From Halichondria panicea (Eukaryota > Porifera > Demospongiae > Suberitida > Halichondriidae), in assembly GCF_963675165.1 (NCBI RefSeq), contig NC_087385.1, forward strand, positions 1,984,501 through 2,048,500: 64,000 bases of DNA, read 5' to 3'. Shown in pieces: positions 2,246-61,847 of this stretch. Below the pieces are notes generated by a model that did not search any database, was not told the origin of the DNA, and saw nothing but the letters and a program-made list of their open reading frames with translations. A program made the translations under genes and the position numbers. Numbering within the stretch: position 1 is the stretch's first letter; every line of letters begins with the position of its first letter.

Positions 2246-2710
2246 TGCAATTTCCTTGAACTGATGTCCTCTTTGGTAGTGGTTTAGTGAACGTGCTACA
2301 GTCTGCCAATGTAAATCTGAAAAAGCATCATCAGATGCACACAATCTAACATTGTTGCCCAGTGAGTGGGCATATCAAAGCAATCCAATGCTCAGTATAT
2401 AGCATGTTGCATCACTACCATAGCAACCATATAATGCACTGGGATTATATGCACTTGCATTGTGTGTAAATGCAGTAGATTTCTGCAAGAGATATCCTTT
2501 TGGGACTTATGCACCACCATCACACCCAATAACTCATTTGGTCCCTTTTATAGGCTACTACTTTTAAAACTAGAAGTGGGAAGAAAACCTGAAAATTTAC
2601 TATGGAATTCAGCAAAACTAATGAATACACTAAATTCCTTTAAAACATATGTCTTAAACAGTATCTAACGAGTTTAGTTGCTAGGTTCATTTCAAAAACT
2701 AACCGAAAGA

Positions 2711-5214: not shown

Positions 5215-8200
5215 ATCCCTTCTAATACTCTGTGTAATGCTATGAGCCATCCAGACATGACCCCCTATCTAAAGGAGGAGGGATATGTTCGAATGATTCG
5301 ATGCTTTCTACTGCCAGAGCTAATGATTCAACAAAAGGAAGCACCAAACGCTCTCAGAGAAGATGAGGTCGACAGGAGACATCGACCAATCAGACGAGGG
5401 GGAAATGAGATGGATCCAGTTTATGAGCTATTCATGCCCAGTCACCCTGAACAACAAGGTATAATAGATCAAAGTGTAGCTACGAAATTGGCATCCAAAA
5501 ACAACATTTTATAGATTGTGACTTGTGATAAAACTTATTGTTGTCATAAAAGGCTCAACTCTTGGTTTTTCAGTGCATAATCCAACGATATTCATTTTCA
5601 GACCAATCAGATGTTGACTTACGTCACACTCTGGCCAATATGGTTGCCATGGTGATTGGCAGTCCAGCCCGAAGCAACCATCTATGGTTCCACATGTTTG
5701 CTCCCGAGCAGCTGGTCAATACCTACATCACGAGGTTCATGGTGAGTTAATTGTGTGTGTGTGTGTGTGTGTGTGTGTGCATGCGTGCGTGTGTGCGTGC
5801 GTGTGTGCGTGCGTGTGTGCGTGCGTGCGTGCGTGCGTTGTGGAGGGTCTTCAGACATTATTTTATATACAACGCTATATATGTATCGTCGTAGATAAGA
5901 CTATCTTTCGAAATTGTAACTGAATTTCCAGTGGCAAATCCAGAGGGAGATCCCTGCAAAGGAACCCCCCCTTTTGCTCGGAGTGTTTTTGAGTACTCTA
6001 CAGTTATGTGTCACCTATTCTACATGTACTTATTGTACTTATGTAGTAATGTCAATACCTACATGTAGTCCATGCACTTTTGAACAGAAGCTAGATAAAA
6101 ACAGTGGCAGCTTCTATACTTGTTTCTACTGATTGTGTTGCAAACTCTGCAATTATTGGTGCAGATATAAGGATTTCCCACATCTATGTAGGCATAACCC
6201 AACGGTCTGCGCAGGGAAACTACTCACCCTAGGAACCACCCTTTTCTTTTCTGGATATCCGCCGCCACTATATACCTTTCAAAGGTGCCAGACTGGCTTA
6301 ATTGATTTAGATGTTGCCATAATTTTAGTACCCACTTGGGCTCGAGAGAGTGGGGAAGAAAGAGGGCAAGAAAAAGCGGGGATAGTAAGAATTAAAGAAA
6401 GGGGAAGATCTGTATCGTAGCAACTATATAGGTAGGGTTGGTAAAAAAATTAGAATGTTCTATCATACTGAATGTGGTTTTGGTTGCCTAACAACCTAAA
6501 TTGAGATAATTCTCTCTAAAGCCACACTGTAAAAATAAAAATAAAAGGGTCCTATATGACCCAGTAAGCTCGTTGCGCATGCGTATATCGAGGTATACGT
6601 TTGTGTACCGTATAGCGAGTATATATTTCGAGGGTATAAATGTTCGTGGTTTTCGCAGATTAAGTATGTACCGCGAACATTTATAACAGCAAATTTAATA
6701 TCGCATGCATGCATGCTGCAAAAAGGCTGCTATTCCCGAAAATTAAATCCGCAAAAACCTTTTTAAAATGGCTTTTCGCAAAAATGTATACCTTCGAAGT
6801 ATACAAGCTATATGCGGTACACATAGACTGCAAGTGGCATGTCTAACGAGGGGCTTTGAGGGCTTGAGCACCCCCTGGTCTCCCATGCAGACAACCATGA
6901 GGAGACTAATCTAGCTATTACTGGTCTAGCTATCAGCACTACTAGTCTAGCTGTATATATAACAGCACTGGTAGACAGCTATATATATGGCAGCACTGCA
7001 TGGTCTAGCTATCAGCACTGGTTTAGCTATCAGCACTATTGGTCTAGCTATCAGCACTGGTCTAGCCATCATCAGCACTACTGGTCTAGCTATCAGCACT
7101 GGTATAACTATCAGCACTAGTCTAGCTAACTGAGCAGTTGTCTCAAATTCTCATGCATGTAAGCTGATGTTACTAGTCATGACCACGCCCTACTGAGCGT
7201 GCACAATCAGCATTGGCAAGCTATAGCTAATAGGGTCTCAAAAACAGTGACCTTTTTTTAGGAGATTCTGAGCACCCCCTTCTCAAGTTATGACTAGATA
7301 TGCTTACTTTGAAGGCCATTGCAGTCACTCCAGATTCATGAAGCAAAACAATATGCACACTGTAAAAAAAAAGTGTGCTGGTCTTAGTTACTCTGGTACA
7401 TGGATAAATAATGCTTGCATGCTAAATAAATCCTCTTGTTGAGACTGCTGAAGAAGATATTCCATGTGTTGTATTTGGCTGGACTCTTCATCACTTGTAT
7501 AATTATAGCGATACTCTGACTTGAACACACACACTACCGTAGAAACTGGATTAATTTACTAGCCCTTGCTCAATTATAAGCATATCTTTATTTTCAGCGC
7601 ATGCTCAACTGCAGGTTTTTGTAGTAGAATTGAAGCGCTTTTCCAAATTATGTGAAGGATATTAGTGAATTGATTTGTTTATCTGTGCAGCGAGCTGTAC
7701 ATGCAGAGTATAGATAGTGATATCCACCTGAAAGGACTCTTTGGCTTTTTCGTTTTGTTTTTTTCTTTAAAATATTTTATGCGTAAGCATACAAGGGTGT
7801 ACAACAAATAGCGCTACAATAATCAAAAACGTTGTATACCTGCATGGATATGAACAAACAATGCAGTAAAAAAAGTGTTATGAAAAATAAAAAAACGAGT
7901 GCTGCAAGCTGCTGCCTCTCGCCATGTTTTGCTTTCGCTCAAAACTATTGGATGAGGTAATTATAAGTGGCGGATCTAGGATAATTGTCAGGAGGGTTCC
8001 AGTGGCAAAGCAGGGACAAGGACTCTGCATTTCACCTAAAAAAAAGGTCGTCACTTTTATAAAACAGTAAGCATGCACAATAGGACATGACATTTCACCT
8101 AAAAAAAAGGTCAGCACTTCTCAGATACAGTCAGCATGCGCTGCAGGTTTAGAGCCTTTTAGTTACTAGATCTGCATAAACAGAGCTTCGCAGGACTTAG

Positions 8201-11200
8201 GAGAACTAAAAGTAAGTTATTAGAGCTAGTAGTAAAGGGAAAACTTGCTAGCTGCTTAAGCCTCCCTCCCACTCACTTATGTGTATGAATCAACCACTGT
8301 AAGGTCAGGAGGGTGCTTGAGCACCCTCTGCTACCTGCTAGATCCGCCCCTGATATAATGTTACGTTATGTTGTATATAATGTTGCGTTATTATTATTCC
8401 ATGAGGCGTATAGCCGCACGAGGGATATGGTAAAGCTGTCTGTGTGTCTGTGTATCTGTTCCAGCTGTAACTGCTCAACGGTTGCCATGCGACGAAACTA
8501 ACAGCTTCTATATATAGGCTTCTAGCCATGTTCTCTTGGATTTGATTCGTGAATTAGCAAACTAAAGCTTCTTTCTCGAGTTATGGCTAGTTTGACAGGC
8601 TGTTGCAGTCTCTTCAGAATCTTTCGTAACATCATCTGTTTGCACAAACTTTCTTATATGAGTTAGCCTTGCACTAAAGCGCTAGCTGTTTTTTAGCTAC
8701 AGGAGTCAAGAAATAGCTGCAAAGCTGCATGTCCAAGGACAGATACTAGAGGGGGGCTTTGGGGGCCGTAGCCCCCCTCCCCCCTCCAACTAGACGGACT
8801 GTAGCAGCTAATAGCTTGTTTCTAATTCAGAGGAGGTTCGACAGGGTCAAATGGTCATTAATGACTAATGGAGATCCAACCTGATGCTATTTGGAGTGGA
8901 GTGGACTTGGACCCTTTTTGCTCCTAGCCTGGTCAATGCACAATGAACTTTATAATAATTATAGATTTCTAGCTAACTAACGAATCATCCCTCGTTCCAA
9001 GCAGAGACATCTGGTTACTGGGTATAGGGCTCAAAATTGACTAAATTATAGGTGCATTCTCGAATATAAGCGTACAGAGCTCTGCTATTGACCCTGGAGC
9101 GCTGTTTCTATGAATCTGAGATGAACTTAGCTATTCCACTTAAGTATATAGGTAGCTTTTGCACTAGAAAACTAGCTATTAGTAGCTGCAAGAGTGCTGC
9201 AAACAGCTTCACCTATTAATTGCACTTTTGGCATCCTTCTAGCGTGGTCATGCACAGTAAAAACACATTCGTTACAGTAACATACAACATGTTAAATGAA
9301 ACGCATCTTTTGAAATTTAATATGGAAATTTCTGTCATTTTAACACTAAATACAATGATGCATCTCATATAATATAATTATGTGTTTTTGCTGTGTGTCG
9401 ATTATTTCGCATATTAACAATTATTATGCAGTGCATGCTATATTTTAGTGATTCTCATCAATATTCACTCTTTGCAGCCATCCAGAGCTTCATAATGTTT
9501 GTTGAAGACTGTTATATGGCACAGTATTATAACAAAGGAGAGCTCACTAGGGTGTTTTTCTCGAGTAAGATCAAGATTTTTGTCTACGACGAGTTTTAAT
9601 GAGTTTTGAAAAATTCCTGTAGCCCCCCCCCCCCCCCACTGCCAAATATAGTATGCAAAAATAAATTGCACAATGCAAGAACAGAGGAGGGTAGGTCTCA
9701 TAGGTCAGTCGCGCAAGGGTCTTAATATACATTTTTTGCACGTGATGATCAGTGGTTTGCTCACGTGCGACAGCCATATGGCTCTATATTCTAAGTGTGT
9801 ATTAAATGTGATCTTACCACACGTACAGGGAGAGTTTGGGAGCTCAGACTACAACAAATGTGCCACTCGTGACACGTGCACTCTCCACTCTCTCCACCTC
9901 CTTCTCTTAACCAACTTTGGAGCCTTCACCATGTCACTATTGACTCTCCCAGACGCAGATGCCAGGATACACGGACCACAGATCTCAGACTGGCAGTCTG
10001 TGCGTCACTACTGTGTGTCACAGCTGAGGACTGTATGGCAGTACTTGACGAACAATCTGGGGCTCTCTGAGGAAGAGAGGACATTCTTTGTGAATCAATG
10101 TCTCAAGACCTTCCATGAGGTGGTTAATCAGTGTGATCTTGTTTGTCTTTCGTTAGTTGCCTCTATATACCATAATTATAGCTACATGTAGTTGTTAAAT
10201 TGCACATATAGAAGAACAGAGCCATGGGGGTGAGTAAACACAGATTTAGAGTACCACTACCACCACCCATGCAGGTGGTCAACAGATCTCTTGAGCCGCT
10301 CCCTTCCCCCCAGCTGCTTGAGTCGGGTGAGCTGGTGAAAGACTCAATGAAAGGGCTCTTTGTCAGCAGAGAAGAGCTTAATGATTACGAGAGGCTCTGG
10401 CACTGTCATGTGTACCAACCAACATGGAACCAGTTGCAAGAAAAAGTGAGCCTGGACTTAATTATGGAATACAGTGATTGTTAGACTGTTTTGTAATATA
10501 TAATTATGTTCCATTGAGTGCAGATAAAAGGGTTTTTCACGATTTTTCCTCTCTACAGTTTGCCGTCTACTCCAACCTCTGCCAAAACATTATTTTTGCT
10601 AAGTTGAGGTAGGTCAAACTTGTTCTGTCTTACCTTCTCACTAACAAGGGGCGTAGCCAGTGGGGGGTGCTGGAGGGGCTTGAACAGTCTAATTTTTGGG
10701 TAACGCAGTTAAAACCCACCTTTATCGTACTCAATCTATTCATAAGAAACCTATAGTCCAGTCCTAGAGTAATAGCCACTATATTAACCACATGCACTCC
10801 TTGCAGGTGTCTAGACATCAATTACCCGTACTTCCTGTCAGAGACTGACTTTGTGAATTGTAAGTTGGAGCAGCACTCGGATGGTGAAGTCTTGAGGGGA
10901 CTGTCAGAGTTTGCCCAGGGCTGGCGGAGGTTACAAGCAGGAGGACTGCTACTCCCTGACCTGGTCGAGTTCTACCGATGGCTGCACACTGAGCTGTGTA
11001 TGTTGTTCGCTCACATAATTATTTGTAATCATAAGCCTCAGTCTCTGCAATTGAGTGCTATAATATATAAGGCCTATATAAGTGTAGTTAGTGTATAGGT
11101 GTATAGGTGACAAAGGTTCTCAACCTATATATAAACAACATGTATCACATCACTAAGGTATAAACAACAAATTTACAAGTTTGTTGATTCTGCGTCTTTC

Positions 11201-16163: not shown

Positions 16164-16194
<31 letters not shown>

Positions 16195-19100: not shown

Positions 19101-22100
19101 ACATAAACAATAGTTAAATAGTATAGTTTCATGTCGTAAAGCAGCTGAGGCATTTGTATATACTCCCATCACATTGCTTCTGTTACTGTATGGTTCTTTT
19201 TTTCAGCCCACCTAATGACGTACGAACGGACTACCACTGTAACCATTCACAGAGTTGTGCAGCTGGCCGCCAGGAGGTACAGCTCACCAATGGGTGAATA
19301 CATTCTCGCCCTATACGACAGAGTCAAGACAGGGTACAACAATTATGTGGAGCTGATTGGTGGGGCCATTGAGGCGGGGGCAGGTGCGGCAGTCAAACAG
19401 GAGAACAAAAGATTCACAATTGCTGATAACGTGCCTCTCCTCCACTTCCTCACTGGTGAGTGGGTTTTGGAACTTCTATTTGTGTATAATTGGATGATCA
19501 CAAACTTTTAGGCTGTAACTATAATTGTTAGGATTTTTATGCCACTGTATGTTTTTAAAACTAGGAACTTGGGGGTTGTTGTTTACACAACAGGTATAAA
19601 TAAATCCACCACGGGTGCTGACGCCTCGGTTCATATATAACTGCTCTTTTCTGGTATACACAATGTATATTTGCCTATTCACGACCTCGTTTTATTATCC
19701 TATTTACAGTAACCCACAAAGGTCACCATACACAAGGTGAGGATTCGTATTATGAGATATATAGTGAGACTTTGTTCTCAACAGTTTTTATCTTGTATTC
19801 TAACTCCCCTCCCTCTAACCACCCCCTCTTTCAGATGCTGGGGAGCAAGGCAATGATTGGTTGTTCACAGTGATAGCGGACATTGTGAACACTCACAACC
19901 AAGCCATTGAGAACCTCTACAACATTGTCCACTCTCAGAAACAGCTACATCTTACGAGACTCCTCCCAGAGCAGCCGGCCAAGATCCTCCTAACTGAGGT
20001 CACCAAGAAGAACTGCATCATCGGCACCTTTACAAGGTGAGTGCATGTCCTACTAGCATTGGTCATGCAGTCTGTTTCATCTATATATCAAGATAATTAT
20101 CTAAATTATTGGTGGTTTGGTGAGTATATTACAATGCAGTGACACCCACATTTAACCCGTACCCATGCAGCCTACATGGAGTGAGCAACTTCCTTCAGAT
20201 CATTCGTAGTCGCTACGTGCCACCAAAATTCAAGTCTTTGCCAGATAAAATCACACAGGGTTCAAGTATGTCCTTTGCTCCCCTACAAACTAAGGACGAG
20301 CCTGAGTTCCAACTAAAGCACCTTGAAGAGGACTTAGTGAGACTGTTCAACGCAGGAAAGCCACTGATTGAGTCACCCTCCTCCATACGCACTCTGTTCA
20401 AGTTCAAGCATAGCCATCGTCTGGATGACGTGATCATTCCTGATAAGTTAGTATTATATAGTACTGTCTATGTGGACGTTCCTCTGGCAATATATTGGCT
20501 CTAATTAAGATCACAATCATGCTTGTTGGGTAGCAATATAATTATGTAATTATGTGGCTGAATATTTCAGGTTCTGGTCCCACGACAACATTCCATATTC
20601 CTTTTGCCCACAAAATTACAATGTTGTGATGTGTAACAGATTCTGCTACTGATATATATACAGCAAAAACATGCATGACAATAATTAATGGATCAACAGA
20701 ACTCTATCTGATGGCTTGATGAATGATTTTCGGATAGAAGCCAGAGGATAGACGCGTAGATCTACATATTTTGCATTTCATCAATGAGAAAGAGTTGTAT
20801 CTGCAATGAGGTCAGAGTTCACAAGGGCTGCTGGCACACACAGTTTTGCAGCTCTTTTTTGACTCTTGAGGTAACAAGCAGCTATAATAGCGCTTTAGTA
20901 TATACAAGGCTAAGTCATAAGTTGAATAGAAAGTGTCTGCAAACAATTCAGAATGCTCAGCTTCCCCTGATTCTGAAGAGAGTGCAACAGCAGCCTTAAC
21001 TGTCCATAACTCGAGAAAGCAGCTTTAGTTTGTAAATCCACGAATCAAAATCCAATATCTCATGTACCAATTCTTTCAAAAGTCCTATAGAGACTCTTGA
21101 GACTGCTCAACGGTTAATTGCAATGCGACGAAAACTAACAGCTTCTATATAGGCTTCTAGTAAGATGGCTGAACAATCCAGTGTATGATAGTGGCTGAAC
21201 AATCCAGTGTATAGGACGAAGAAGGTTGTAGTAGAATGGGGTAGGATGTATGTTAGGGTACGATAGGTAGGATGACTGAACAATCGGACCAGTGTAGGAC
21301 GTGGTAGGATCACTAGATTGTTCAGCCATTCTACCTTATCGTACAACTGAAAGGGTTGTACATGCATGCAGAAGGTTTTAAGTAAATCTATAAGGGTACT
21401 CCCCTGAGAACACAAACAAACACATACTAATGTACATTTTCTAATGAATTGAAAAGTCATGTAGCTTAGTTTTGAATAACTAATAACTTCAATGAAGTTG
21501 AGCTTACAATGTCTTCTGGAAGATTGTTCCATAAGTACGTATTAGTTATTGCCCAGCACAGTGCAACATGCCATATATTGCACTGGATGACATAATGCCC
21601 TCGCATTATGTCATCCAGTGCAATATATGCATGGCATTTTGCACAAGGGCACCTGCAATAACTAACTTGTTGCCCAATGACATCAAATTCTTCTGATTGG
21701 TCAATTTTTCCCTATTAAAAGACATGTGTTTTGGTAAATTCTTACCACAACTAATGAAAATGGTAGTAGCCTATAAAGGGACCAAATGAGTTATTGGGTG
21801 AAGGGTGGGGCATAAGTCCCGGTTTCTTTCTCAAAATCTACTGCATTTACACACATGCATGCAGTGCAAGTCCAGTGCATTATGCTATTATAATTAATGC
21901 AGTGCAATCTATGGTAGTGATGCAACATGCCATATACTGAGCACTGGATTGCTTTGATTTGCCCACTCACTGGGCAACAAGGGGCATTAATGAAGTATAC
22001 GAATGCCTGTAACAGTTTATTCTCGATTGTACAAAAAAGTGTGAGGTGGTGATGCCTTGTGTTTGTGGTATAATTAGTCTGAAATATTTCTCAAAACTGA

Positions 22101-25100
22101 TGCAGTCCAGAGAGTTTAGGATCTTGTATGTTTGGCAACATGTCAGTATAATTGCATGCCTTTGCGATAGTGTTGACCATTGGAGTTCAGTTCGGGCTTG
22201 ATCGTATGATTTTGTCCAGCTGTAATTATGTTTGTCCCACTTGGAACAGATCCAGTGGGCTGCTCTCCTCAGGTAATCCGCATGCACGCTCATCCCCACA
22301 TGCATGTTAGAGAATCCAGTGGCAGAATCATACTTACTTCTTTTTCTTGAGGTCCTGGTATACCAGTAAGCCACAAAACACGACAACGATACCAAATAGA
22401 TAACAATAGCATGTACACAAGTCTTTTCTCTGCTTGTTTAGATATACTAGATCTATTTTCTATATATACTGTCTGTGCTATACTACTACTGTGTCTGTAC
22501 TTATACTGTCTGTGCTTAAATTCTCTCTTACTCCGTGCCTTTGACTAAGGTTTGCTCCACGTAATGTTGGCTACAGGCCATTGCAGTTGCTTCAGTATCG
22601 TTGAAGATGATATTCATCAAGCCATCAGATATAGGCTTCTGTTTCCATTCAACTACTCTCCTATAACGACTATGTGGAGTTCAATTCTGTCAAAAATTGC
22701 TATCAACAATAATAACGATACCTCTTCTAATAGTTTTTGAGCAAAAGCAAAACAACGGCGAGAGGCATTAGCACATGCAGCGCAGCTTGCACCACTCATC
22801 TACTTTTAATAGAGACCGGTATGGAATCACTTCAGTTGCAAATATGTAATATACGTCGAATAAAGGTCGCGTGTAGAGCTAGCCTCTACTCTAGGCAACA
22901 TGCAAGTTCTTAGCTTCTTAGCTTTTGCTACAACAACGAAGCTTTAACATCAAAATCTAAACTAATAACTTGTTGTGTGGAGGCTATCCATCCTGTAAAC
23001 GCAGCGCCGTGGCACCTAGATGAGTAGATTCACCTGTTACAAACGAACAGACAAGACAACTACTATACCCGCTGGCCGCGGCACGGCCTCGGGTAACTAG
23101 TTGCCCTATAAAGGAGTGATGTGTACACGAAAAGGAATGCAACAAATCAGTTGTTACACAGCTTCACTCGTGCGCACACTGTTGGAGGTACTACTGAGCC
23201 AATGTTTTTCATGCGTTACGTTTCTCATATTGTGTGCTTATAATTATAAGTTCCCTAAAATTATACAGTTTAGAATAACTTGAGGATACATGTACAGTCA
23301 TGTATCCTTATAATCGAGTGTGCGCTTAATAATCTAGTTTGCATAATTATGTTAATTGCAACTTGTTATAGCTTGTTCATTTAGTCATAATTATAGTTAA
23401 GAGTTAAGCTGAAGACGTTGTTTTTCATGCGTTACGTTTCCCATATTTGGGTGCATGCTTATAATTATAAGTTTACAGTTTAGAGTTTGTAAAATAATGT
23501 TTTATAGTAAGAAAACGTGATAATCCTCTCCCCCCAAACATACTACAGTGTGATCCGAGCCACGCTGGACTTGGAGGAGATTGGTTACAAACTACCAGAC
23601 GAGTACATGGAGCCTCTCTCTGCCAACCTGAACAAGCGGTTGGAGTACGAGTTTCACTCTTGTGGTTACAACAACCTCATTGAAATCATTACTGCTCTCA
23701 GGACAGTCTGTGGACACCTGGTCAAGGTATATGGATGTGATATAACTGCATGAGCTATAAGTATATACCTGATACATAATCATAATAATTATATCTCCAC
23801 CATCGGTAATTAAGTAATTATTGTTTGTTGCCAAAATAAGTGAATGAACTGTATAATTATGTGGCATATCACGCTTGCTACTAAAACTGTGATTTTCTGA
23901 TTGCAGGTAATTATGAAGGATGCTCAGAACAAAGACCTGAACACACTCACTCTACCCCGATTCATGATGGACTACGTCTACGAGCACCTTAGCGACCCAC
24001 AGAGAGTGCTCCACGAGATCGGTGTAACTCCACACTCCCTCGAACAATCCCAACTAACATGCCTCATCGATATCCCACTACCCTCTGTGTTTGCTTGCTT
24101 CCAACGTTTTGTGCAGTGGATGGATAATGGCGTGTACGATTTCTGTAACCTCTCTCATGCTATAAAAGTGGATCTCTCTGAGGATGACGTGATGTTTTTC
24201 GAGTTGGAACTGAGAAAGAAGTGGACAGGAACGACTAAAGAGCTAGAGTCGGAGGTGAAGCAGATGATTGAGGTACTCAAACACTCTGAGAATGATATTA
24301 TCACTAGGACTGTGAACAAGCAAGCTGCAAGAGTAAGTTACTTTTCTCAAGTGTGATTCTGGATTCTGTATGCAGCAAAATTAAAAAAAATGTTCATCAT
24401 GATAATTATAATCAATGTGTGTATAAAAGCTAGCTATATTAGTAGCTTTATGTTACGTAGCTTTGGCACCTCCACCGAGGCATCAGCACCTGCGGTGCTT
24501 TCATTTTCCTAGCATAATTATGCCTGCGTGTGTGTGTGCGTGCGTGTGAGAGAAGAAAGCTGCAAAGCTCTGCTAATACAACCAAACTTAAACTTTTGGC
24601 ATCAATCGTTTTTAACAACAATTGTGGTCGATTATTACCCACTCTTGGAGTTTCCCTGTGATTCAAAGTTCAAGCTCTCTCTCTCGTATCGACAGAAGGC
24701 TCCAAGCAGCTAGCTACAATGCATGACCGTAATCTACAACTAGTAAACTATGTACAGCTCTGGTTTAGAGGTCTGACTCCAAACCGTTAGACAATGGTGG
24801 CCTCCTTTTTAGTTTTTATTGTTGTACGCAGGTATTAATCATTAAGTACTTAGTGTAGCATAATTATACACTAATTATAAGGATTATGCTACTTGTGTTT
24901 ATTGCGTATGCAGGTATCAATCATTGAGTACTTCAGTAAAGAGGACAAGCTTCCTCCCCTCATCCCAGAAACAGTGGTTCTTCAAAACTACGTCCACTTT
25001 AGACTCACTCTAAGAAGGTAGCGTTTTCTTATTGATTGGCTGACAATATTGTATTTCTAGGTTTCTAGGTTAAAATGACCACAAAGAACTATCTGCCGAA

Positions 25101-28100: not shown

Positions 28101-31100
28101 AAAGTGTTGCTATCCAGGTGCGGATTTAGCAGGTAGCAGAGGGTGCTCAAGCACCCCCCTGCATGACCCTTGGACAAATATATATCACTCATTGGCTGTG
28201 GAAGTCACTCTCAGACTTGATACTATAGCTAGCTGAGTAAGTGTAGACCTATCTATTACAGTAGTGTCTTTTAAAAGCTATGATAAAAGCTTGACTAGCT
28301 GCACTGCTGTGTAGACTGGACTGGACAAGTAAATATTGATAGCAAGGAACCTCTGCAATGCAAACCACACCTAATAATTAATATGACAGTGATACTGCAC
28401 CCACCGGAAATGACGTCAAAAGGGGGCGTAACCTAGATGTTCGCGCACTACCGCGCAGGATGCTCCTTGCCTCTCTTGCTCAGCACCTAACCTACCAGAT
28501 CTGCCACTGCATGCTATCATAACAAACTACTGTCAGTCAGGGTTGGGCAAATCCTGTGTTTAATACTATCAGTTCAACGCTCTTGATTACTTTTGGTACA
28601 ACTGTGAAACTAGCCCTTGCCTCCTGAACTATTGAACTTTAAGTGGCATGTGACTCACTTCACTTAGCTTGTTAAAATAAATAATAGCTCTGGCTAGCTA
28701 ACTTTATACCTAGGTATATAGAATGAGCAGAAATGAGCTCCATCACTGCCTTGTTGATGAAGAAAAGAGAAAAAGATCAGAGTTTACTGTCTTCTACGCT
28801 TTAATTAGTGGGTGTGATTTCCGGTCAATCATTTTTGCGGCACCTCGTTCTGCCTCCAGAGGAGGTCCGACATGCATGCACTAATCACTACAAGTTCAGT
28901 GTATTGATTGTCATAATTATTGCGTTAACGTGATAACGTCCAGGCCAAATGCACTGAACTTGTAGTGATTTATGCACGCATGTCGGACCTCCTCTGGTCT
29001 GCCTCCTTCCTGTAATCTCTAGTTACGCCCCTGTACAATCAAGGGCGTACAAAAGAAGAGAGGGCAAGCAACAGCAAACAGCAGAATCCACCACGTGAGC
29101 GGATCAATGTGTATGCTGCATGAAGTGCGAAAAATACTTCTAGCACTTCATGCAAATGAACATTCATCCACCCATGCATGTGGTGAATTCTGCTCGCTAC
29201 TGCGTGTACCAGATAGTGAGTTGCATGCCCTCTCTTCTTTTATACGCCCTTGGTCAATATGATTATTGCTGTGTATTTTGCTTCACTCATGCTGAGAACC
29301 TTTTGCACAGGTTGTTGATCAACTTGCAAACTGAGCTAGCGACAGGTGCAGACGCTCAGGCCCAAGGCAACCAATGGTCAGAGTTTGTGGCAGACCTTTG
29401 GAATGCATATCTGCCTCATCTCAGAGAAGAAACACGCGGAGAGGGAGAATTCGTTTTCGATCCTTCTACGAATCGCTACGGCTTCGAAAACCAATCACAC
29501 TATTCTTGTGACGATGAGCTATTCATGCAAGAACTGGAGAATGACGGATATGATGAGGTGGTGGTGGAAGGGTTTGGTAACAACGTGGCGGAAGGGGGCT
29601 CTTTTGTAGAGGTGGATATCAGTCTATCGCAGGTGACCCACACGTACGATCTGGCTCAGTCAACTGATGAAGAGGAGGAATCATATGTAAATGATGTGAC
29701 CAAGCCTTCACGATCCAACGAGGAAGACCTAGCATGTGAGTTATGCATGGGAGGAAAGTGTTGTGGTTCTTGTAAAATGCAGTCAATGATTTTTATTTAT
29801 AATTGCATAACACAAGGATACACTAGTATATACGTAGCATATAAACTACCAAAATGTGTGCCCTATTAAGGTGAGCGAAGCGAGTCCCTATAGTGATCAA
29901 CATTGTAATTACCCGAGGCCATGTTGCGGCCAGCGGGTATACGGTAGTCCGTTAGTTGGTTGGTTTGTTTGTCTGTTTGTCAGATCTGGGTCCACTCACC
30001 TGGATGCCATATAGCTAGTGATGCGTTTACAGCATGGATAGCAATCACACAACAAGTTTAGTTCTACTATTGGCTGATTTTGTGTTAAAGCTCCGTTGTT
30101 GAATACTTAAAAGCGAGCAAAAGCTAAGAAGCTTGCATGTTGGCCAGCTAGCACACGCGGCCTTTATTCAAGGTAGATTACGTATTTACAGCTGAAGTGA
30201 TCCGGTATACCAGGAACAATGGAACAGGGAGTGTAGCTTTCCAGTATTACAAAGACTGAAGCCACTTTATTGCCCCAGCCTACTGCTGTTTATCAATAAA
30301 GTGGGTGGATCAAGGCGTGGTTTATCTATTCGATTATCCGGCCTGCTTTTGGAACCAAGGTGTCCGGATAATCGAGTACAATAAATTGTTTATTATTATA
30401 GTGGGAAATCAGCATTAAATTTTAGGAAAAAACGAGGATATTCGTAAAAGAAATGTATGCAACATCAATAATATCTCTGCATGGAATATGAATCAATGAG
30501 TGAATCAGTGTGATTTGTAAAACCGCTAGATCTTCTTGAGTTACTCACCTAACCGAAATGCACCAACATCTCACCATAGGATAGACAAAACTAACATTAT
30601 GATTTTGTGACAAAATTCCAAACCTTAGCCGAAAACCATTGGTTTTCTGGTGAGCCTTTTGTTTCAAAATGGTGGTACAAAATACTATGTGTTGGTGCCC
30701 TAAACTGAAAGGATAAATCGTCTTGATATGTTTTATCAACTCGATTTTATCGACTTCTTCTGGTAAGGATCAACTCAATGTCTTTTATCGAATCGATTGA
30801 TATGGTGGTAGCCTCGATTCCAAGCCACTGGGAAGAAGACAGAGGAGGTACGACAGACAGGTGCCATGCAGCTCAAGTAATTTGCCTTTGATTGAGCAAT
30901 AATTATCCGCCCACGTCGTAAGTTTTTGCTGAGTGTAATTAGAGGCTAATTACTTGAGCTGACACACCGAGTCCATCCTTACCAGAAGAAGTCGATAAAT
31001 CGAGTCAATTCCTACCAGATGAAGTCGATGAAGTCAATTTATCCCTCCAGTTTGGGACATCAACACATGGTCTTTTGTATTGCCATTTTAAAACAAAAGG

Positions 31101-34100
31101 CTCACCAAAATGTTTGCCTGTTCTATATAACCACAAATCCACCACCTATATAATCATGTTGCCATGGACAACGTGTTTTGTAGCTTATTCATTATCTCTA
31201 TACACATGCAATGGTATCAGCACTAGCTGCTAGAAACAACAGCAACACTATACTTACAGATGTGTTAATCTACTCTCTACAGACTGTATAATAATGTTGC
31301 TTCCAAGAGGCATCAGCTTTCATTAGGGTATAATTGGCAGAAATCTTGTAGGTTTTTAGCAATGTAATTGACAATTTATTGAACCGTGTGTAGAAAAGAA
31401 GTATATAATACATACATCAGGAGTGTATGAAGAGGAGTATGCGACTCCCACGCACATTCCATTCTACATCTCGGACTGAATTCGTCACTAACACTTTTAT
31501 TATTATTATTATTATTATTAGTAGTTGTGTAAACTGTTAGCCATTAAATGTGGGCTGGAGGTACAAACCACACGTGTATATGCTGATATTATTTTTCTAA
31601 TTAACCACTACACCTACGCACCCACTTAAGATGCGGTCTGATAGTGACGTGGTATGACATACTTGTACCGAAACCTGGTTTACACTACAACTGCTACAGT
31701 TGGATACTCCTCTTCATACACTCCTGCATACATACATACATCAACCAGACCAACGTTCATGCATGACTAACTAAGGGACTCGCTTCGCTCGCCCCTTGTT
31801 ATGAATTGACGTACAGCTCTCTAGCTTTCTTGTTTCCATGGTTTTTGGTAAAGTATGTCTAGTGAATGTACACGGAGATTGATGCCACCCTGTTTGTTTG
31901 TTTTTTAGTTGAAAGACTCCAGGACCCTGACTTCCAGAAGAAGATACTGTCGATGGCACAGAGCATCATAAAGAAAGGTATACGTATACATGCGTAATAA
32001 TAATATATAGTTATTATAGCTTGTCACCAGGCCTATTTTACGGTAACATTAGTGTAAAATCATGAGGAGCACACGGCTATTTTGAAAAATCAGTATGCGT
32101 ATATATAGCGTAAGCCATCAATTATCAACCGGGGTTTGCGCCTAGCGTTATATCTCAGCTGCACTAGGCTTCTAAAAGCTTGTTTTAAGTTTCTACATAA
32201 GGTCAACTCCTCTTTTACAGGTACAAATAGGTATGCCTCGGTGCGCATGCGCAAGCGAGGTATACGGTAGTGTGTTTGTGTGTCTGTGTGTGTGTGTGTG
32301 TCTGTGTGTCTGTGTGTGTGTGTGTGTGTGTAAACCGCTACAGCTGCTCAAGGATGAATCAAGTGCAAGTAAGAGTTTCTATAGGCTTCTAGTCATGTTT
32401 ACTTGGATTTTAATTCGTGGATTTGCAAAATAATACTTCGTTCTCGAGTTATGCCTAGTTTTGCTATTGCAGCCTTTTCAGAAGAGTCCGTAGCAAAATT
32501 TGTTCACCGAGTGTTACTACTCTACTTAGTAGTTAGCTCTGCACTAGAACGCTAGCTATTGGTAGCTGCAAGAGTGAGCAGAGAGCTGCAAGGCTCTGCT
32601 GACTTGCAGCCATTAATTTTAGACTTGAACTTTGGCATCGATCGTTTTTAACAACAATCATGGTCGATCATTACCCACTATTCGGTTGATTGCATGCAGC
32701 AAAATTCATCATAATCAATGTGTGTATAATAAAAGCTAGCTATTAGTAGTTTTATGTTATGTAGCTTTGGCACCTCCACCGAGGCATCAGCACCTGCAGT
32801 GCTTTCATTCTATAAGCTTTCTCACCTTGAAAGGGAGCCATACGAGCTCCAAGAGTCCATGCAGTCGTCAATTGGTTATCATCCACAGCTATCGATTATT
32901 GGTCTCTAAACATTTTACTACTTTCTATAATCGACTATATTATAGCTACAGCAAAGTGTGCCGTTATGAGGCAATGAGGCAAAACAGTGCAATTTAACAC
33001 ACACCATCATTCTCAGCAGGTCTGACAACCCTTTACCAAATTTATCTTGAATGTTTCTTACGTTTCATTTTTATGCAACAAAGGTATATCTGACAACTGT
33101 ACATAAATTATAGGCTGAGTATAGCACACTATTATTAGTAACACCATAGTAGAAATGCATCAGTGCTGACTTTAGCGGAGAGGACAAAGTTTGTTGCTTG
33201 TAGAACTGTCCATCTCACGCAACTACATTGTAGCCATTCTCTTCCAGTGCCAATATCTTCTTCAAATGATCCATAACACACAGCAACGGTTGTCATGAAT
33301 GGTTTCATCCTTGTCAAGACTGGTTTTTTCAGAATTGATCGGTTTTCAGTTTCTGTGGCATGATTCCTCTTTTGTAGAAGTTTGCCTCTCCACTGTTTTC
33401 TTTTGCTTCTCCTCTGCTATCCATTGCCTCTCCTCTGCTTTCTTTTGCCTCTCCTCTGCTTTCTTTGCTTTGGCCTGATTTCTTTCAGCTGCTTTGAGAG
33501 CTCTTTCGTTTGTCTTGTGGATTCTTTCACTTTCTTTGCATTTCTGTTCTGTTTTTCTTTGTTTCTCTTTCCAGTTTACGTTGTTGTTTCTCCAGTGCAA
33601 ATTGTTGCTTTTGTTCTTCTTTTTCTCTAAACATTCAGTTTGTTAAAACCCGAGCTCTTCCAATCTTAGTTGCTTACCTTTGGAGTACTTGTTGACAACA
33701 GAGAACGTGGCACACTGTACAAGTCAGCAGCTTTGTTACCGGACATGTGGTCAATCTGAACACTTTTTATCGCAGCTAGCATTTGCTCATCAGTCCATTG
33801 TTTTCTCTTCAAACTCCTGTTACTTTTTTTAAGGTGGGAAACGGATGGTGGTCGTTGATTACTCGAACATTTTAAACCCCTTCTTTTTCTTATTGGGCAG
33901 CTCTTACATGCAGTCGGACAGCTTACAGCTGCATTATTTTAGTATACATAAGTTAATATAGACTAGTACAAATGCAAGCTACTGATGCCATTCACTAAGC
34001 TGGTTAATGCAAACGCTCAAACATTATACCATCAACATAGAAACACTACAATAGCTAACTTACTACTTACCTGGAAGACGATGGCTCTTGATATGCGTAT

Positions 34101-35747
34101 GCTTGTGTCGAGTAGCTTCTTTGCAAAACTGACACAAGGGCAAAAGTACGGATTACCGTTACATTTCTCCGTATACTAGCCTAGTCGATAATTGATTGAT
34201 GATTATAATAGGTATAGGTTGATAATCGATGGCTTACGCTGCACATTCTAATTACAGCACAATACAACAATAATTGGTATTTAGTGAGTGTACTAGAGCG
34301 ATGTGTAAAAATTTCCTAAAAGTTGGTATAGTAGTTTAGCAAATTTGCTAAGAGAGTCTCTGTAAACTAGTACACAGGGCCGTAGCCACCAACTTTAGAG
34401 TGGTCAGGTTGTTATGAATTGGAACAAATAGGCGCGCTATGCGCGCCGAATTTTTTTAGGCCACACCCATTTCAGGTATCGTTGGTAACGCCCCTTCTCT
34501 ACTGACTACTACTGGCTATCTGCTGGACTAGATTCTGTTCAGCTTCAAAGCTTAGCCCTAACACAAATGTTACAGAACACAACATCTTGATTCTTATCAT
34601 GATGGAGAAACAGCGAAGTTGTAATGGCAAGACCACAGAACTGGTTTGGACTTTCCAAATGATCACTTGGGGAACAAAAAATGGTTAGCTGGATGGTGAG
34701 CTTGGTCTGGAAGGCTTGGAAGGGATTCTCTCTCGCCATAGCAATGATAGCATGTAGACTAATAGTCTTGATCACTTATAGTTCTAGCATGCTTGCATGT
34801 TTTGCACTGCAGAAGAAGTTCACTGCATTTTTTGTCAATTATGTGTTTACTGTAGTGACGACCATTGCCTATTCACCTCGAAAAAGTGGTCAGGTTGAAA
34901 CCTGACTAACCGGACTGGTGGCTACGGCCCTGGTACATGCATGCTCTTGACTAGCCTCGTCCCCAGGCCCATATTATGCAGTTGTCTCTAAAATAACGCT
35001 AGGTCACCAACTAGGCCTAGTAAAGATGTGTATAAGCGTCGTTGCTTATAATACTAAAGGTGCATGGGTAGCTACTCTGTACTTGATTGGGCATGAAACG
35101 AGATATGTACACACTATAAGCATAATTATCATTGCATAGGTAATTCTTTGCTCTATCATCTAGTATATAATAGATCGCTTGCCTTTTCCCCAGAGCCGGT
35201 CACATAATATATATATCGCATAGTGTGCTTATATAAATTTTGCGACTGGCCTGAATCCATTAATAATTATTGTATATAAATGCATGTATATGTCTCTCCA
35301 GATAAGCAAGAGTTAGTCTCCAAAGCCAGGACCTATACGCCTAAAGATGTGGGAGACTTCCTTATAAGCATTAAGCTAGAGGAGTACGTACAAGCGTTTA
35401 TTGAAGCTGATGTTGGAGGAGACGTCTTGTTGGATGCCGATTGCGAATTCCTGAATGCACTTGAAGTCAACTCTCTCCTTGATTGTGTTCGTATCATGAC
35501 TCTGTTTACACGGCGACTACAAAACACTGAGCCACGCCTCCCTGTCTCCGAAGTACTGAGGTTCTTAAGAGAAAATAAATTTGAGAAATATGTCGAACTT
35601 TTTAAGCAGAATGAGATCGATGGTGACATGCTAGTGGATACTGATCCAGGGCTTATAAAGAACATGTTGAAGGATATTGGAATAGTGGTGGTGGACAGAG
35701 TGAGTATTCTTAACAAGTTTAAAACTTTTGCTAGTAGTGAACAGTGA
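5215..35747 (+). CDS. RNF213-like C-terminal region fused to tandem SAM domains (5' end missing)
   Basis: Exons read by eye: 5215-5458, 5574-5741, 9829-10119, 10275-10445, 10559-10608, 10807-10997, 19207-19455, optional 19710-19736, 19835-20036, 20171-20446, 20571-20630, 23549-23726, 23907-24332, 24914-25017, 29311-29735, 31909-31977, 35302-35747 (stop TGA). About 1180 residues lie in the window; earlier exons must lie further left. Segments such as RHTLANMVAMVIGSP, NHLWFHMFAPEQL, DLVEFYRWLHTELSHL, DNVPLLHFLT and CLIDIPLPSVF resemble the region after the RING of RNF213-type giant E3 ligases; this comes from memory, so the family call is moderate. No AAA, RING or RZ-finger segment lies in the window. 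An acidic linker (29400-29735) follows, then two SAM domains in the last exon. Phases agree at all junctions except 5458/5574. If the family call holds, a cytosolic ubiquitin ligase scaffold is expected; the SAMs would add oligomerisation. Confidence 0.6.
5752..5840. repeat. GT/GTGC microsatellite beside a splice donor
   Basis: About 25 bases of alternating TG, then GCGTGCGTGTGTGCG-type units. It begins some ten bases after the GTGAGT donor at 5742. Confidence 0.9.
6606..6819. mobile_element. MITE, TACCGTATAGCG family, copy 2 (divergent)
   Basis: Left end TACCGTATAGCGAGTATA; right end the complement, TATACAAGCTATATGCGGTA, with mismatches. Internal TTCGTGG and TTCGCA motifs resemble the other copies. 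It is non-coding and more diverged than the copies at 37787 and 52657. Confidence 0.6.
6895..7140. repeat. Degenerate minisatellite, about 18-20 bp unit
   Basis: About eleven irregular repeats of GGTCTAGCTATCAGCACT with variants (ACTAGTCTAGC, GGTTTAGC, GGTATAACT). No frame runs through it. Confidence 0.85.
7970..8352. mobile_element. Short hAT-like element or remnant
   Basis: The left edge has GTGGCGGATCTAGGA, the right edge CTAGATCCGCCCCTG, i.e. an imperfect inverted pair on the CAGGGGCGGATCTAG theme common in hAT elements. The inner end GTAGCAGAGGGTGCTCAAGC recurs on the other strand at 28124-28150. Contains two tandem copies of a CATTTCACCTAAAAAAAAGG segment (8030, 8092). No clear 8-bp duplication. 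Confidence 0.4.
8398..8720 (+). repeat. Interspersed repeat family R2
   Basis: Begins near ATGAGGCGTAGCCGCACGAG and continues through CTGCTCAACGGTTGC, GCGACGAAA, CTTCTAGCCA, TTTCTCGAGTTATGGCTAG and GCACTAAAGCGCTAG. Other copies: about 12361-12672 (-), 16122-16372 (+), 20846-21162 (-, partial), 38943-39070 (+), 40912-40985 (fragment). Non-coding. Confidence 0.75.
11926..12350. mobile_element. MITE with GTATAAGCTCTTTTTAA ends
   Basis: Inverted ends GTATAAGCTCTTTTTAA (left) and TTAAAAAGAGCTTATAC (right) are a perfect 17-bp pair. A minus-strand frame of 122 codons (11911-12279) includes a PVGRPRKTA AT-hook-like motif and may be a relic of a transposase N terminus. A GGAGCTCCATTTGGAG segment near the right end also occurs, slightly changed, in the element at 15765-16108, so the two are related. 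Confidence 0.65.
12361..12672 (-). repeat. Interspersed repeat family R2, minus-strand copy
   Basis: Reverse complement of the 8398-8720 unit, with TTTCGTCGCATTGCAACCGT, CTAGCGCTTTAGTGCA and the terminal CGGCTACGCCTCA all recognisable. Confidence 0.7.
13104..13131. repeat. (CAGA)n microsatellite
   Basis: Seven CAGA units with a final CGGA variant. Confidence 0.95.
13416..13970 (-). pseudogene. 5'-truncated LINE retrotransposon, reverse transcriptase C terminus
   Basis: On the minus strand the translation has the classic tail of a non-LTR reverse transcriptase: KYRFKVQVFHKEKI, LPSLSTRRLYLKLSYLYQVI, then CRTNAYANSFFPKAISVWNE and LPLEL, ending near 13556. About 120 bp further along the minus strand, a run of 20-plus A (plus-strand T tract from about 13416) marks the poly-A tail. 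Truncation on the 5' side and a poly-A tail are the normal signature of target-primed LINE insertion. Clade not determined. Confidence 0.8.
14216..14817. mobile_element. 602-bp TIR element with ~75-bp ends and near-perfect 9-bp duplication
   Basis: Left end TAGTCTCGCGCAGCCGTCGA, right end the complement (CGAGACTA last); the inverted pair extends about 75 bp through GGGGGAAGGACGTCTGGT and CCGCCGCTTTTCCATGA with few mismatches. Flanks are GGCGTGACA (14207-14215) and GGCGCGACA (14818-14826), eight of nine matching. Long ends with a 9-bp duplication fit Mutator-like elements. Non-coding. Confidence 0.8.
15207..15738. mobile_element. 532-bp CAGAGGAGG-family element, perfect 9-bp duplication
   Basis: Ends CAGAGGAGGTACGACACG and its complement CGTGTCGTACCTCCTCTG (18 bp, perfect). 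Flanking direct repeats GTGAGTGAT at 15198-15206 and 15739-15747 are identical. Same end family as 28857-28996 and 38093-38554. Non-coding, probably MULE-type. Confidence 0.85.
15765..16108. mobile_element. MITE with TACTTCTTCTAAATAAGGCG ends
   Basis: Left TACCATACTTCTTCTAAATA and right complement (TATTTAGAAGAAGTACGGTA) pair over about 28 bp, continuing into AGGCGCC. Internal sub-repeats GGGCGCCTTAT lie near both ends. A GTGGAGCTCTATATGGAG segment links it to the element at 11926-12350. Confidence 0.7.
16122..16372 (+). repeat. Interspersed repeat family R2 with GT microsatellite
   Basis: Starts GCCTCGAGGCGTAGCCGCAC, includes a (GT)n tract (16163-16190), then the shared GCTCAACGGTTGCAATGCGA and TTCTTTCTCGAGTTCATATG segments. 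Confidence 0.75.
16550..16674. repeat. Repeat family R5
   Basis: TATTCCTGTGGATGTAATGC followed by GCATGCGCGCTCATTCC and GGTAAGCCACAAAA. It matches 41019-41140 closely and 22265-22400 less closely. Confidence 0.55.
16675..18838 (-). repeat. R1 repeat cluster, minus orientation, interrupted
   Basis: Two successive R1 copies read on the minus strand, starting at 16675 and 17253 (each opening ACTAGAGCACT.AAGTGCAAA), plus a partial third (18641-18838) ending at CCCGTGGCCGCCCACG. The second is interrupted by an 856-bp element at 17476-18331. Each copy carries GCATCCAGGTGAG or a variant, a strong-looking splice donor in this orientation. Confidence 0.75.
17476..18331. mobile_element. 856-bp TIR element inserted in an R1 copy
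   Basis: Ends TAGATACACGAAAGAAAGGG and its complement; the inverted pair continues through ATAGGCAACGCCC (over 30 bp, near perfect). Interrupted R1 sequence shows GGTCACAGCA at 17466-17475 and again at 18333-18342, a ~10-bp duplication. It holds short frames with no recognisable domain. Confidence 0.8.
19710..19736 (+). other. Possible 27-nt cassette microexon
   Basis: TATTTACAG precedes and GTGAGG follows a 27-nt segment that enters and leaves in phase 1, exactly matching the flanking exons (19207-19455 and 19835-20036). Its inclusion would add VTHKGHHTQ between LLHFLT and DAGEQGNDW without changing frame. The flanking exons also join perfectly without it, so it would be optional. It could be chance. 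Confidence 0.4.
21539..21980 (-). mobile_element. Non-autonomous, internally deleted Crypton derivative (~440 bp)
   Basis: On the minus strand its left ~215 bp match 2352-2570 (TTGTTGCCCAGTGAGTGGGC to ACTCATTTGGTCCCTTTATA) and its right ~180 bp match 4236-4391 (GACCAATCAGA to AATAACTAATAC). All recombinase coding sequence is absent. It carries a near-terminal hairpin (21572-21629) that the longer copy lacks. It sits against a LINE remnant at about 21985. Confidence 0.8.
21572..21629. repeat. Perfect 27-bp hairpin, 4-base loop
   Basis: Arms 21572-21598 and 21603-21629 are exact reverse complements around CCTC. The arm contains TTGCACTGGATGACATAATG. It lies inside the right-end region of the Crypton derivative. 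Confidence 0.95.
21985..22270 (-). pseudogene. LINE reverse transcriptase C-terminal remnant
   Basis: Minus-strand translation reads AAHWICSKWDKHNYSWTKSY, then LQWSTLSQRHAIILTCCQTY, and later QSRINCYRHSYTSLMPL, the usual RT-tail order (AARWIC..., LGW.SL..RR, then INxYR.SF). No poly-A tail is visible because the Crypton derivative abuts it. Different in sequence from the LINE remnant at 13416-13970. Confidence 0.7.
22810..23096 (-). repeat. R1 repeat, minus orientation, partial
   Basis: Contains GGAATCACTTCAGTTGCAAA, GAATAAAGGTCGCGTG and the terminal GCCGCGGCACGGCCTCGGGT. Confidence 0.65.
25777..27954 (+). repeat. Tandem cluster of R1 repeats, plus orientation
   Basis: Successive copies start with ACCCGAGGCGC...GGGCGGCCACGG at 25777 (with a partial duplicate of the start at about 25830) and at 26945, then a partial copy from 27523; copies end GGGTTTGCACTTTAGTGCTC at about 26942, 27520 and 27954. 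Unit about 0.6-0.9 kb. The first is interrupted by the element at 26056-26570. Confidence 0.8.
26056..26570. mobile_element. 515-bp TIR element nested in R1, 8-bp duplication
   Basis: Ends CATAGATTGAAGAGTTAGAG and the complement extend about 33 bp into GGATAGGAAACGG. GCTTGAAC flanks both sides (26048-26055 and 26571-26578). The GGGATAGG.AAC core recalls the ends of the 17476-18331 element, which also sits in R1. Confidence 0.8.
28857..28996. mobile_element. 140-bp CAGAGGAGG-family element, nearly all inverted repeat
   Basis: Starts CAGAGGAGGTCCGACATGC and ends with the complement; arms of about 45 bp continue into CACTACAAGTTCAGTG. Flanks TTCTGCCTC and GTCTGCCTC (28848-28856, 28997-29005) match at eight of nine positions. 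Confidence 0.75.
29911..30236 (+). repeat. R1 repeat, partial
   Basis: Opens ACCCGAGGCCATGTTGCGGC and runs to GCTGAAGTGATCCGGTATAC; the 3' half of the unit is missing. Confidence 0.7.
30640..31115. repeat. Long inverted repeat, ~135-bp arms
   Basis: The left arm (30640-30775) reads GGTGAGCCTTTTGTTTCAAA to TTATCGACTTCTTCTGGTAA. The right arm (about 30985-31115) is its imperfect complement. Spacer of about 205 bp contains a single CAGAGGAGGTACGACA end. Probably a fold-back element. Confidence 0.65.
31418..31726. mobile_element. 309-bp TIR element, CAGGAGTGTATGAAGAGGAG ends
   Basis: The 23-bp ends are perfect inverted repeats. Flanks lie in CATA repeats, so the target duplication cannot be sized. 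Contains the (ATT)n tract. Confidence 0.7.
32224..32815 (+). repeat. Interspersed repeat family R3 with GT microsatellite
   Basis: Starts ATAGGTATGCCTCGGTGCGC, includes a GT tract (32268-32330) and ends ACCTCCACCGAGGCATCAGC. Minus-strand partner at 1727-2245; fragments near 19010-19100 and 24455-24690. Confidence 0.65.
33346..34150 (-). pseudogene. Zinc-finger/psq-HTH/coiled-coil protein, likely pogo-type transposase remnant
   Basis: Minus-strand exons: about 34150-34071, 33928-33678 and 33624-33346 (stop TGA). The first reads CQFCKEATRHKHTHIKSH, a Cys/His cluster, but CNGNPYFCP just upstream is in another frame, suggesting a one-base deletion near 34127. The second reads CPTACKSCPIRKRRGLKC, then KRKQWTDEQMLAAIKSVQ and NKAADLYSVPRSLL, a pipsqueak-type helix-turn-helix. 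The third is a charged coiled coil (KAAERNQAKAKKAEERQKKA) as found at the C terminus of pogo-type transposases. Phases match (1, then 0). The DDE catalytic domain expected between HTH and coiled coil is absent. It lies antisense in the final intron of the SAM gene. It could instead be a domesticated DNA-binding gene. Confidence 0.55.
34375..34932. mobile_element. 558-bp TIR element, CAGGGCCGTAGCCACCA ends, 5-bp duplication
   Basis: Ends CAGGGCCGTAGCCACCA and TGGTGGCTACGGCCCTG are perfect 17-bp inverted repeats. GTACA occurs immediately outside both (34370-34374 and 34933-34937). Sub-terminal GGTCAGGTT is also mirrored. Short frames inside are not recognisable. Confidence 0.8.
35302..35747 (+). 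other. Terminal exon encoding two SAM domains
   Basis: Translation begins DKQELVSKARTYTPKDVGDFL. SAM 1 spans roughly residues 12-76 of the exon product (DVGDFLISIKLEEYVQAF, then GGDVLLDADCEFLNALEV). SAM 2 spans roughly 82-143 (VSEVLRFLRENKFEKYVELF, DGDMLVDTDPGLIKNMLK). Both show the usual pattern of an early helix, KLEEY/KFEKY, a GDxLL/DGDML turn and a final helix. The exon enters in phase 1, completing a codon from the exon at 31909-31977 (SMAQSIIKK), which ties the SAMs to the upstream gene. The acceptor is TCTCTCCAG. Confidence 0.8.
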
Positions 35748-61644: not shown

Positions 61645-61847
61645 TTACTAAAATTTTTATGTATTCATAAAATCTAATTAATAACAGTGATACATCACGC
61701 GATGGCAATTAAAATCCAATATTAGTGCTCACCAGGCTCTAATTAAATAAATGACGGCTGCATGCAGCAAGGGCCTAGCCTATATACATTAATAATAAAA
61801 GCATGGGAATGTATAGATCGAGATCATAGACTATAGTTGTGTCCAAA
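61645..61847. promoter_or_regulatory. Short intergenic region, TONSL to PPP1R16-like gene
   Basis: 203 bp, head to tail. AT-rich, containing AATTAAATAAATGACGG and TTAATAATAAAAGC, which could provide polyadenylation signals for TONSL. No clear core promoter was recognised for the next gene. Confidence 0.5.

Follow-up and report, generated by a model that had tools for sequence, protein, structure and literature searches.

A predicted RNF213-related giant gene ending in tandem SAM domains in the sponge Halichondria panicea

The stretch of DNA analysed here, called the window in what follows (64,000 nucleotides, C9:1984501-2048500), contains a chain of exons that raises the question of whether a relative of the giant protein RNF213 can end in SAM domains, and what such a protein would do. 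An earlier note on this DNA, made from the letters alone, had read the chain as the C-terminal region of an RNF213-like protein fused to two SAM domains and had proposed a giant E3 ligase clustered by SAM polymerisation. In order to assess this proposal, we need to know which gene the exons belong to, how this gene is related to RNF213, and whether anything in it resembles a ligase. Our overall reading, to which we give slightly better than an even chance when both of its parts are taken together, is that a giant gene for an RNF213-related protein has its 3' half in the window and that this protein would be a scaffold and not a ligase.

We searched the whole genome (131 Mb, 39 contigs), in which Wnt, an animal gene family, has matches at three loci (10 places). 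We refer to three copies: A is the window gene, and B and C are modelled on the minus strand of their contigs, at C9:1737144-1757506 and C12:365135-382702, respectively. Negative numbers denote window coordinates continued upstream. A joint gene model of A and B was built with shared splice sites. The resulting model of copy A consists of 29 exons on the plus strand and runs in phase from C9:1955715 (-28785) to a stop codon at 35747; 15 of these exons are within the window (Table 1) and 14 more are upstream of it. The models of A and B correspond to 3,135 and 3,185 residues, respectively, each having a single, terminal stop codon and 28 introns that are all GT-AG or GC-AG. Several splice sites of the joint model score weakly (see exon 23 in Table 1). 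The earlier note had drawn a plus-strand chain in phase from 5574 to 35747. The chain itself was recovered and its start was not: exon 16 is likelier to begin at 5602, because 5574 mismatches the phase of the donor at 5458, and according to the joint model 5215-5458 and the 14 upstream exons also belong to the chain. The three junctions on which the link to the SAM domains depends (25017/29311, 29735/31909 and 31977/35302) are all present in the joint model. Matched blocks give a gene span of at least about 92 kb. The AAA3 Walker A motif lies at -41985, outside the modelled exons, so the gene is longer than modelled.

Table 1 Exons of copy A within the window. Positions are window coordinates; percentages refer to matches in copies B or C.
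Feature	Position	Strand	Evidence
Exon 15, first modelled exon in window	5215..5458	+	Joint A/B model, phase-consistent
Exon 16	5602..5741	+	Joint model; 33% match in C
Exon 17	9829..10119	+	Joint model; 36% match in C
Exon 18	10314..10445	+	Joint model; 29% match in C
Exon 19	10559..10608	+	Joint model
Exon 20	10807..10997	+	Joint model; 37% match in C
Exon 21	19207..19455	+	Joint model
Exon 22	19835..20036	+	Joint model
Exon 23	20171..20446	+	Joint model; weak splice-site scores in A
Exon 24	23549..23726	+	Joint model; 52% match in C
Exon 25, last large exon ahead of linker	23907..24332	+	Paralogues C9:1740368-1740823 (88%), C12:366807-367106 (32%)
Exon 26, ends FRLTLRR, donor of 4,293-base intron	24914..25017	+	Phase-2 boundary common to A, B, C
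Exon 27, acidic linker	29311..29735	+	dN/dS 0.42 vs B; homologous start in C
Exon 28, small second exon of the linker, shared by A and B, absent from C model	31909..31977	+	Joint model; 82% match in B
Exon 29, SAM pair and terminal stop codon	35302..35747	+	Pfam SAM_2 3.9e-18, two stretches; best AF2 mean pLDDT 93.5

Some further features were observed in the window. The intron before exon 15 holds a DUF3504 frame (3.4e-13) with a weak phage-integrase match at 3357-4049 (+), a mobile element of the tyrosine-recombinase type, and the 3.3-kb intron before the SAM exon holds a Psq helix-turn-helix frame (7.8e-8) at 33666-33935 (-), possibly a transposase remnant. Downstream, 49455-49871 (-) corresponds to a PX domain exon (1.2e-14) of another gene. 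The frames of 51575-62895 (+), of weak TPR and LRR type (below cut-off) followed by one that looks like ankyrin (by eye, with no Pfam match), may presumably be parts of one gene of TONSL type.

We then compared the 3,135 residues of copy A to PDB sequences using phmmer. Nine distinct sequences were returned, all of them RNF213. Residues 2-688 align to positions 2525-3222 of the 5,247-residue chain 8s24_A (E 6e-55), which, judging from its length, we take to be human RNF213 with a tag. The aligned part of about 690 residues reaches from the AAA3 Walker B motif to about the end of AAA4 and is upstream of the window. Hence AAA exons were found where they had been sought, upstream of the window and with similarity to AAA3-AAA4 of RNF213, and the homology of the chain to RNF213 stands for those exons and not for the ones inside the window. 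The label of an RNF213-like C-terminal region for the window exons had to be given up accordingly; judged by sequence similarity, it is the upstream exons, and not the window part, that make this gene RNF213-like. Copy A has the motifs GETGVGKT, FLDEVN, GAPGSSKT and FMDEAG, of which GETGVGKT and GAPGSSKT are Walker A. The Walker A of AAA3 is present in all three copies, and that of AAA4 in A and B; the C model has it in the form GSPGSSKT. The dynein-like core with nucleotide motifs at AAA3 and AAA4 that marks the RNF213 E3 ligase family is therefore found here, and in mouse RNF213 these two units are the ones described as catalytically competent (PMC7311170). Exons exist on either side of AAA3-AAA4, where AAA1, AAA2, AAA5 and AAA6 would be sought, the largest one after AAA4 (421 residues) having no PDB match. 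Pfam scans of single exons gave no RNF213, RING or RZ match, and for the AAA4 exon gave AAA families below their cut-offs only.

The paralogues give the exon chain its main support. Genome searches with the exon before the linker and with the SAM exon each returned three places, namely the window, C9 (88% and 79%, respectively) and C12 (32% and 28%), and the two exons are adjacent and on the same strand at all three. A, B and C all have the core first, then the linker and then the two SAM domains. Identity to A is 87% for B and 46% for C. Colinear blocks in a translated comparison between copies cover about -30.8 kb to 35.7 kb and continue further upstream to about -56.8 kb. The model of copy C has 26 exons and 2,570 residues and is phase-consistent through to the SAM stop; some stretches found in A and B are missing from it, and we make no claim that it is complete. 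Since C is at 46% identity and on another contig, its agreement with A is not due to recent copying of one stretch. At least 46 SAM_2 places occur across the 131 Mb, and the copies A, B and C account for five of those listed; with three colinear copies present, the exon chain with a SAM tail is not a chance arrangement. As a separate observation, the AAA4 exon of copy A (L002:7948-8580) has 633 bases with one difference from B, the silent divergence elsewhere in the gene being 0.19 to 0.40; such a pattern would be expected from recent gene conversion between the two copies, which are inverted and separated by about 200 kb.

The two tandem SAM domains of the earlier note were confirmed in all three copies, where SAM_1 and SAM_2 are above cut-off in two stretches when the whole exon or protein is used. 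Taken alone, the second SAM of copy C passes for SAM_1 (26.4 bits, cut-off 23) and just fails for SAM_2 (19.9, cut-off 20.5). The best of five AF2 models of the pair has a pTM of 0.85 (mean pLDDT in Table 1), the other four reaching 43-62 in mean pLDDT. Foldseek gave nothing at E 0.001 or better for this pair, the best value being 0.012. Using VIA-align 2, Z values of 12.6 for DGK-delta, 12.0 for Shank and 10.5-11.1 for polyhomeotic, tankyrase and SARM1 were obtained. These alignments span SAM1 only, and among all the rows obtained just the three liprin ones are an exception. The SAM identity thus rests on Pfam and VIA-align 2 and not on Foldseek. Among PDB sequences the best match is the SAM pair of SARM1, over SAM2 (E 0.0016). 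The mid-loops of the two domains in copy A have net charges of -6 and -5, and the end helices +2 and +1. An acidic mid-loop together with a basic end helix is the charge pattern expected of head-to-tail SAMs, and many SAM domains do not polymerise. The pattern here is weak evidence, consistent with a head-to-tail SAM assembly.

We also searched for the RZ finger (PF20173) genome-wide by profile, which gave at least 20 places at E 0.001 and at least 30 at E 10. At four loci (two on C15, one on C16 and one on C17), an AAA4-type match is accompanied on the same strand by RZ pieces at distances of up to about 9 to 29 kb. None of the SAM_2 matches listed (at least 46 places) is within 500 kb of these four loci, and none of the RZ places is in A, B or C at E 0.001 or E 10, a search in which split domains can be missed. 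All three SAM copies are thus without a detectable RZ and all four RZ loci without a listed SAM. The C16 locus is spread across many exons, its RZ finger being split by an intron. The loci that serve for this contrast are themselves of unsure condition. Their RZ matches contain stop codons in three of the four cases (both on C15 and the one on C17), only C16 being free of them; these perhaps come from intron run-through, and the genes at both C15 loci and at C17 are not claimed to be intact. Two AAA4 fragments, partly joined by hand, were compared between the loci. C16 has identities of 63% and 71% with the solved RNF213 chain and of 36% and 41% with copy A. Copies A and C share 75% and 84% of their residues with each other, compared to 36-46% with C16 and with the RNF213 chain. 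In these fragments C16 appears nearer to RNF213 than the SAM copies are, which fits an old split or a fast-evolving SAM branch alike. Two other features of the RZ places were observed. The AAA4 Walker B of C16 is VVVLDN and not LDE (L017:1188-1463), and this RZ-bearing copy may be without ATP hydrolysis at AAA4. In addition, 15 of 20 RZ places are located in C12:1155138-2215073, five of them within open frames of 1,781 to 1,904 residues; NFX1-like cysteine repeats were seen in one stretch of this group (L007) and in one on C17 (L006), and the C12 group is perhaps an expanded ZNFX1-like cluster.

The same searches were less kind to the E3 part of the proposal. No RNF213 similarity was found beyond residue 688 by phmmer against PDB sequences, and Pfam, run on the 2,447 residues of copy A that follow AAA4, returned SAM families only, with no RZ and no RING. 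A motif for the RZ tail was found in the C16 control only, and motifs for both halves of the finger do not occur together in A, B or C. The absence of RZ is thus a result of profile, Pfam (copy A only) and motif, which a strongly diverged or intron-split finger could escape. With these methods, the RZ finger that carries ubiquitylation in the RNF213 E3 ligase family was found in none of A, B and C. RING was found neither by Pfam in A nor by a full pattern in A, B and C, a pattern that also failed in C16 and so was without a positive control. The 421-residue exon after AAA4 had no match by phmmer or profile, its profile comparison to a late-core exon of C16 was not significant although the two are alike by eye, and its AF2 model was poor (mean pLDDT 47.8). 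The frame 23901-24353 alone gave weak unrelated matches only in phmmer, and when the A/B/C profile was run by hmmsearch against the C16 open frames, the matches better than E 0.01 all fell in the AAA part. An E3 identity is therefore not borne out, RZ being absent by search in three of three copies and nothing C-terminal of AAA4 resembling RNF213 by sequence. The SAM-clustered giant E3 is half right: the SAM tail is there, and the E3 probably is not.

Three other explanations have to be weighed, two of which concern the gene itself. The AAA giant may end after the exon at 25017 or after the linker and be followed by a small SAM gene, as would be suggested by the long introns between the last core exon and the SAM exon of A (4,293, 2,173 and 3,324 bases) and by an in-frame ATG at 35280, within the intron, with which the SAM open frame of A begins. 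However, the corresponding introns of B are 962, 623 and 352 bases, and in C those between core and linker and between linker and SAM are only 217 and 85 bases, which leaves little space for a separate gene. Boundary phases at these junctions agree in A, B and C, and no in-frame ATG precedes SAM1 in the open frame of its exon in B or C. The linker is conserved as well. Over 25018-35301, the two linker exons are the best alignments between A and B (85% and 86%) and the only matches of at least 70 bases above 85%; seven others have 33-342 bases at 68-94%, and most of these are repeated on one part of B or out of order, in a repeat-like manner. When A is compared with B, dN/dS comes to 0.23 for all exons together, to 0.42 in the linker, to 0.17 in the small exon (six changes) and to 0.28 in the SAM exon, by which measure the linker and SAM exons are evolving under purifying selection. 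A separate SAM gene starting between 25018 and 35302 is thus not favoured, and we consider two adjacent genes very improbable. The fusion claimed earlier, an RNF213-type AAA core joined to a tandem SAM tail, holds in the in-phase models of three paralogues, and a single gene is very likely. It is also quite unlikely that this gene is a decaying or silenced duplicate whose introns were swollen by mobile elements, only B and C being working genes. Introns are indeed longer in A than in B in 19 of 28 cases between -28704 and 35301, six of them more than tenfold, two introns of A hold transposon-type frames, and one donor site of B is altered in A, the alternative being modelled six bases on. Against decay, no stop or frameshift occurs in 3,135 codons, and the dN/dS over all exons is low, although a pairwise value is silent on which copy is constrained.

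The third alternative retains the ligase. In this case the C-terminal half would be an E3 shell too diverged in sequence to be recognised, its transfer site would be degenerate, and what the SAM tail clusters would be a divergent but working E3 of RNF213 type. The lengths are close, with about 2,300 residues from where the AAA4 match stops to the SAM exon compared to about 2,025 from the match end to the chain end in RNF213 (5,247 residues), and the E3 activity of mouse RNF213 is described as RING-independent (PMC7311170). On the other hand, the RZ finger, described as needed for ubiquitylation (PMC11549300), was not found in three copies. Furthermore, RNF213 matches were obtained with single exons of C16, both close to where the AAA core ends (E 2e-4) and within the E3 module (E 3e-6). 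By contrast, the window exons ahead of the linker, combined in an 834-column profile, had no RNF213 match up to E 10, neither to the E3 shell nor to the bilobal C-terminal domain. We therefore regard a divergent ligase as somewhat unlikely.

The best reading, which we favour by a little over an even chance, remains a ligase-less, ATP-switched scaffold that would assemble through SAM contacts. In the predicted protein of copy A type, a dynein-like AAA+ core with intact nucleotide motifs at AAA3 and AAA4 is followed by a C-terminal half that is long and diverged, then by an acidic linker and by two C-terminal SAM domains. We infer that the protein has itself given up ubiquitin transfer. Binding and hydrolysis of ATP at AAA3 and AAA4 would act as a switch by which the SAM tail is exposed or aligned, and the SAM domains would then join one molecule to the next, head to tail, so that a coat, filament or cluster forms on a target. 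Ligase activity could come from the RZ-bearing RNF213-like genes of the same genome, if these are working. Coats of mammalian RNF213 are described as cooperative and as needing AAA activity on all three pathogens studied, and the RZ finger as needed on bacteria and not on Toxoplasma vacuoles (PMC11549300). ATP binding is described as stimulating the E3 activity of RNF213, ATP-driven oligomers not being seen in vitro (PMC12075652). A ligase-free coat former is mechanistically plausible, because mammalian coats need the ATPase and, on Toxoplasma vacuoles, not RZ. By analogy, a coat or scaffold role would fit the SAM-tailed protein, and an immune role may be supposed from that of RNF213. A wider suggestion, which we make only tentatively and at well below an even chance, is that the SAM copies are an old sister family of RNF213 that was lost or is unrecognised in vertebrates, a ligase-free dynein-like AAA giant that would build coats by SAM assembly instead of ubiquitin-driven recruitment and would be used beside RZ-bearing RNF213 in the same animal. 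A relative apparently without RZ and with a dedicated assembly domain would separate the ATPase and coat function from the ubiquitin function, and would make the question of how RNF213 coats assemble directly testable.

Among the titles and abstract openings of openly licensed literature we found no description of an RNF213-SAM fusion, which may hence have been published elsewhere. Compared to mammalian RNF213 (mysterin), the sponge protein is alike in AAA3-AAA4, where about 690 residues align with Walker A and B at both sites, and unlike in that RZ was not found, the C-terminal half is unrecognisable and a tandem SAM tail is present. The parts that PMC7311170 describes for mouse RNF213 do not include SAM. 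The RZ-bearing loci on C15, C16 and C17 share the AAA4-type matches with the SAM copies, and C16 is multi-exon too; they differ in their RZ matches and in having no listed SAM_2 within 500 kb. The SAMD9 family carries a SAM domain. Compared by description only, it is alike in comprising immune NTPases (PMC5445408) and unlike in having a STAND-like NTPase and no six-unit AAA core. The SAM1 fold is common to SARM1, Shank, DGK-delta, tankyrase and polyhomeotic (Z 10.5 to 12.6). The SAM partners in known proteins of this kind are ARM-TIR, kinase or PARP parts. Unlike in these tandem or polymerising SAM proteins, the SAM domains here are attached to a dynein-like AAA giant.
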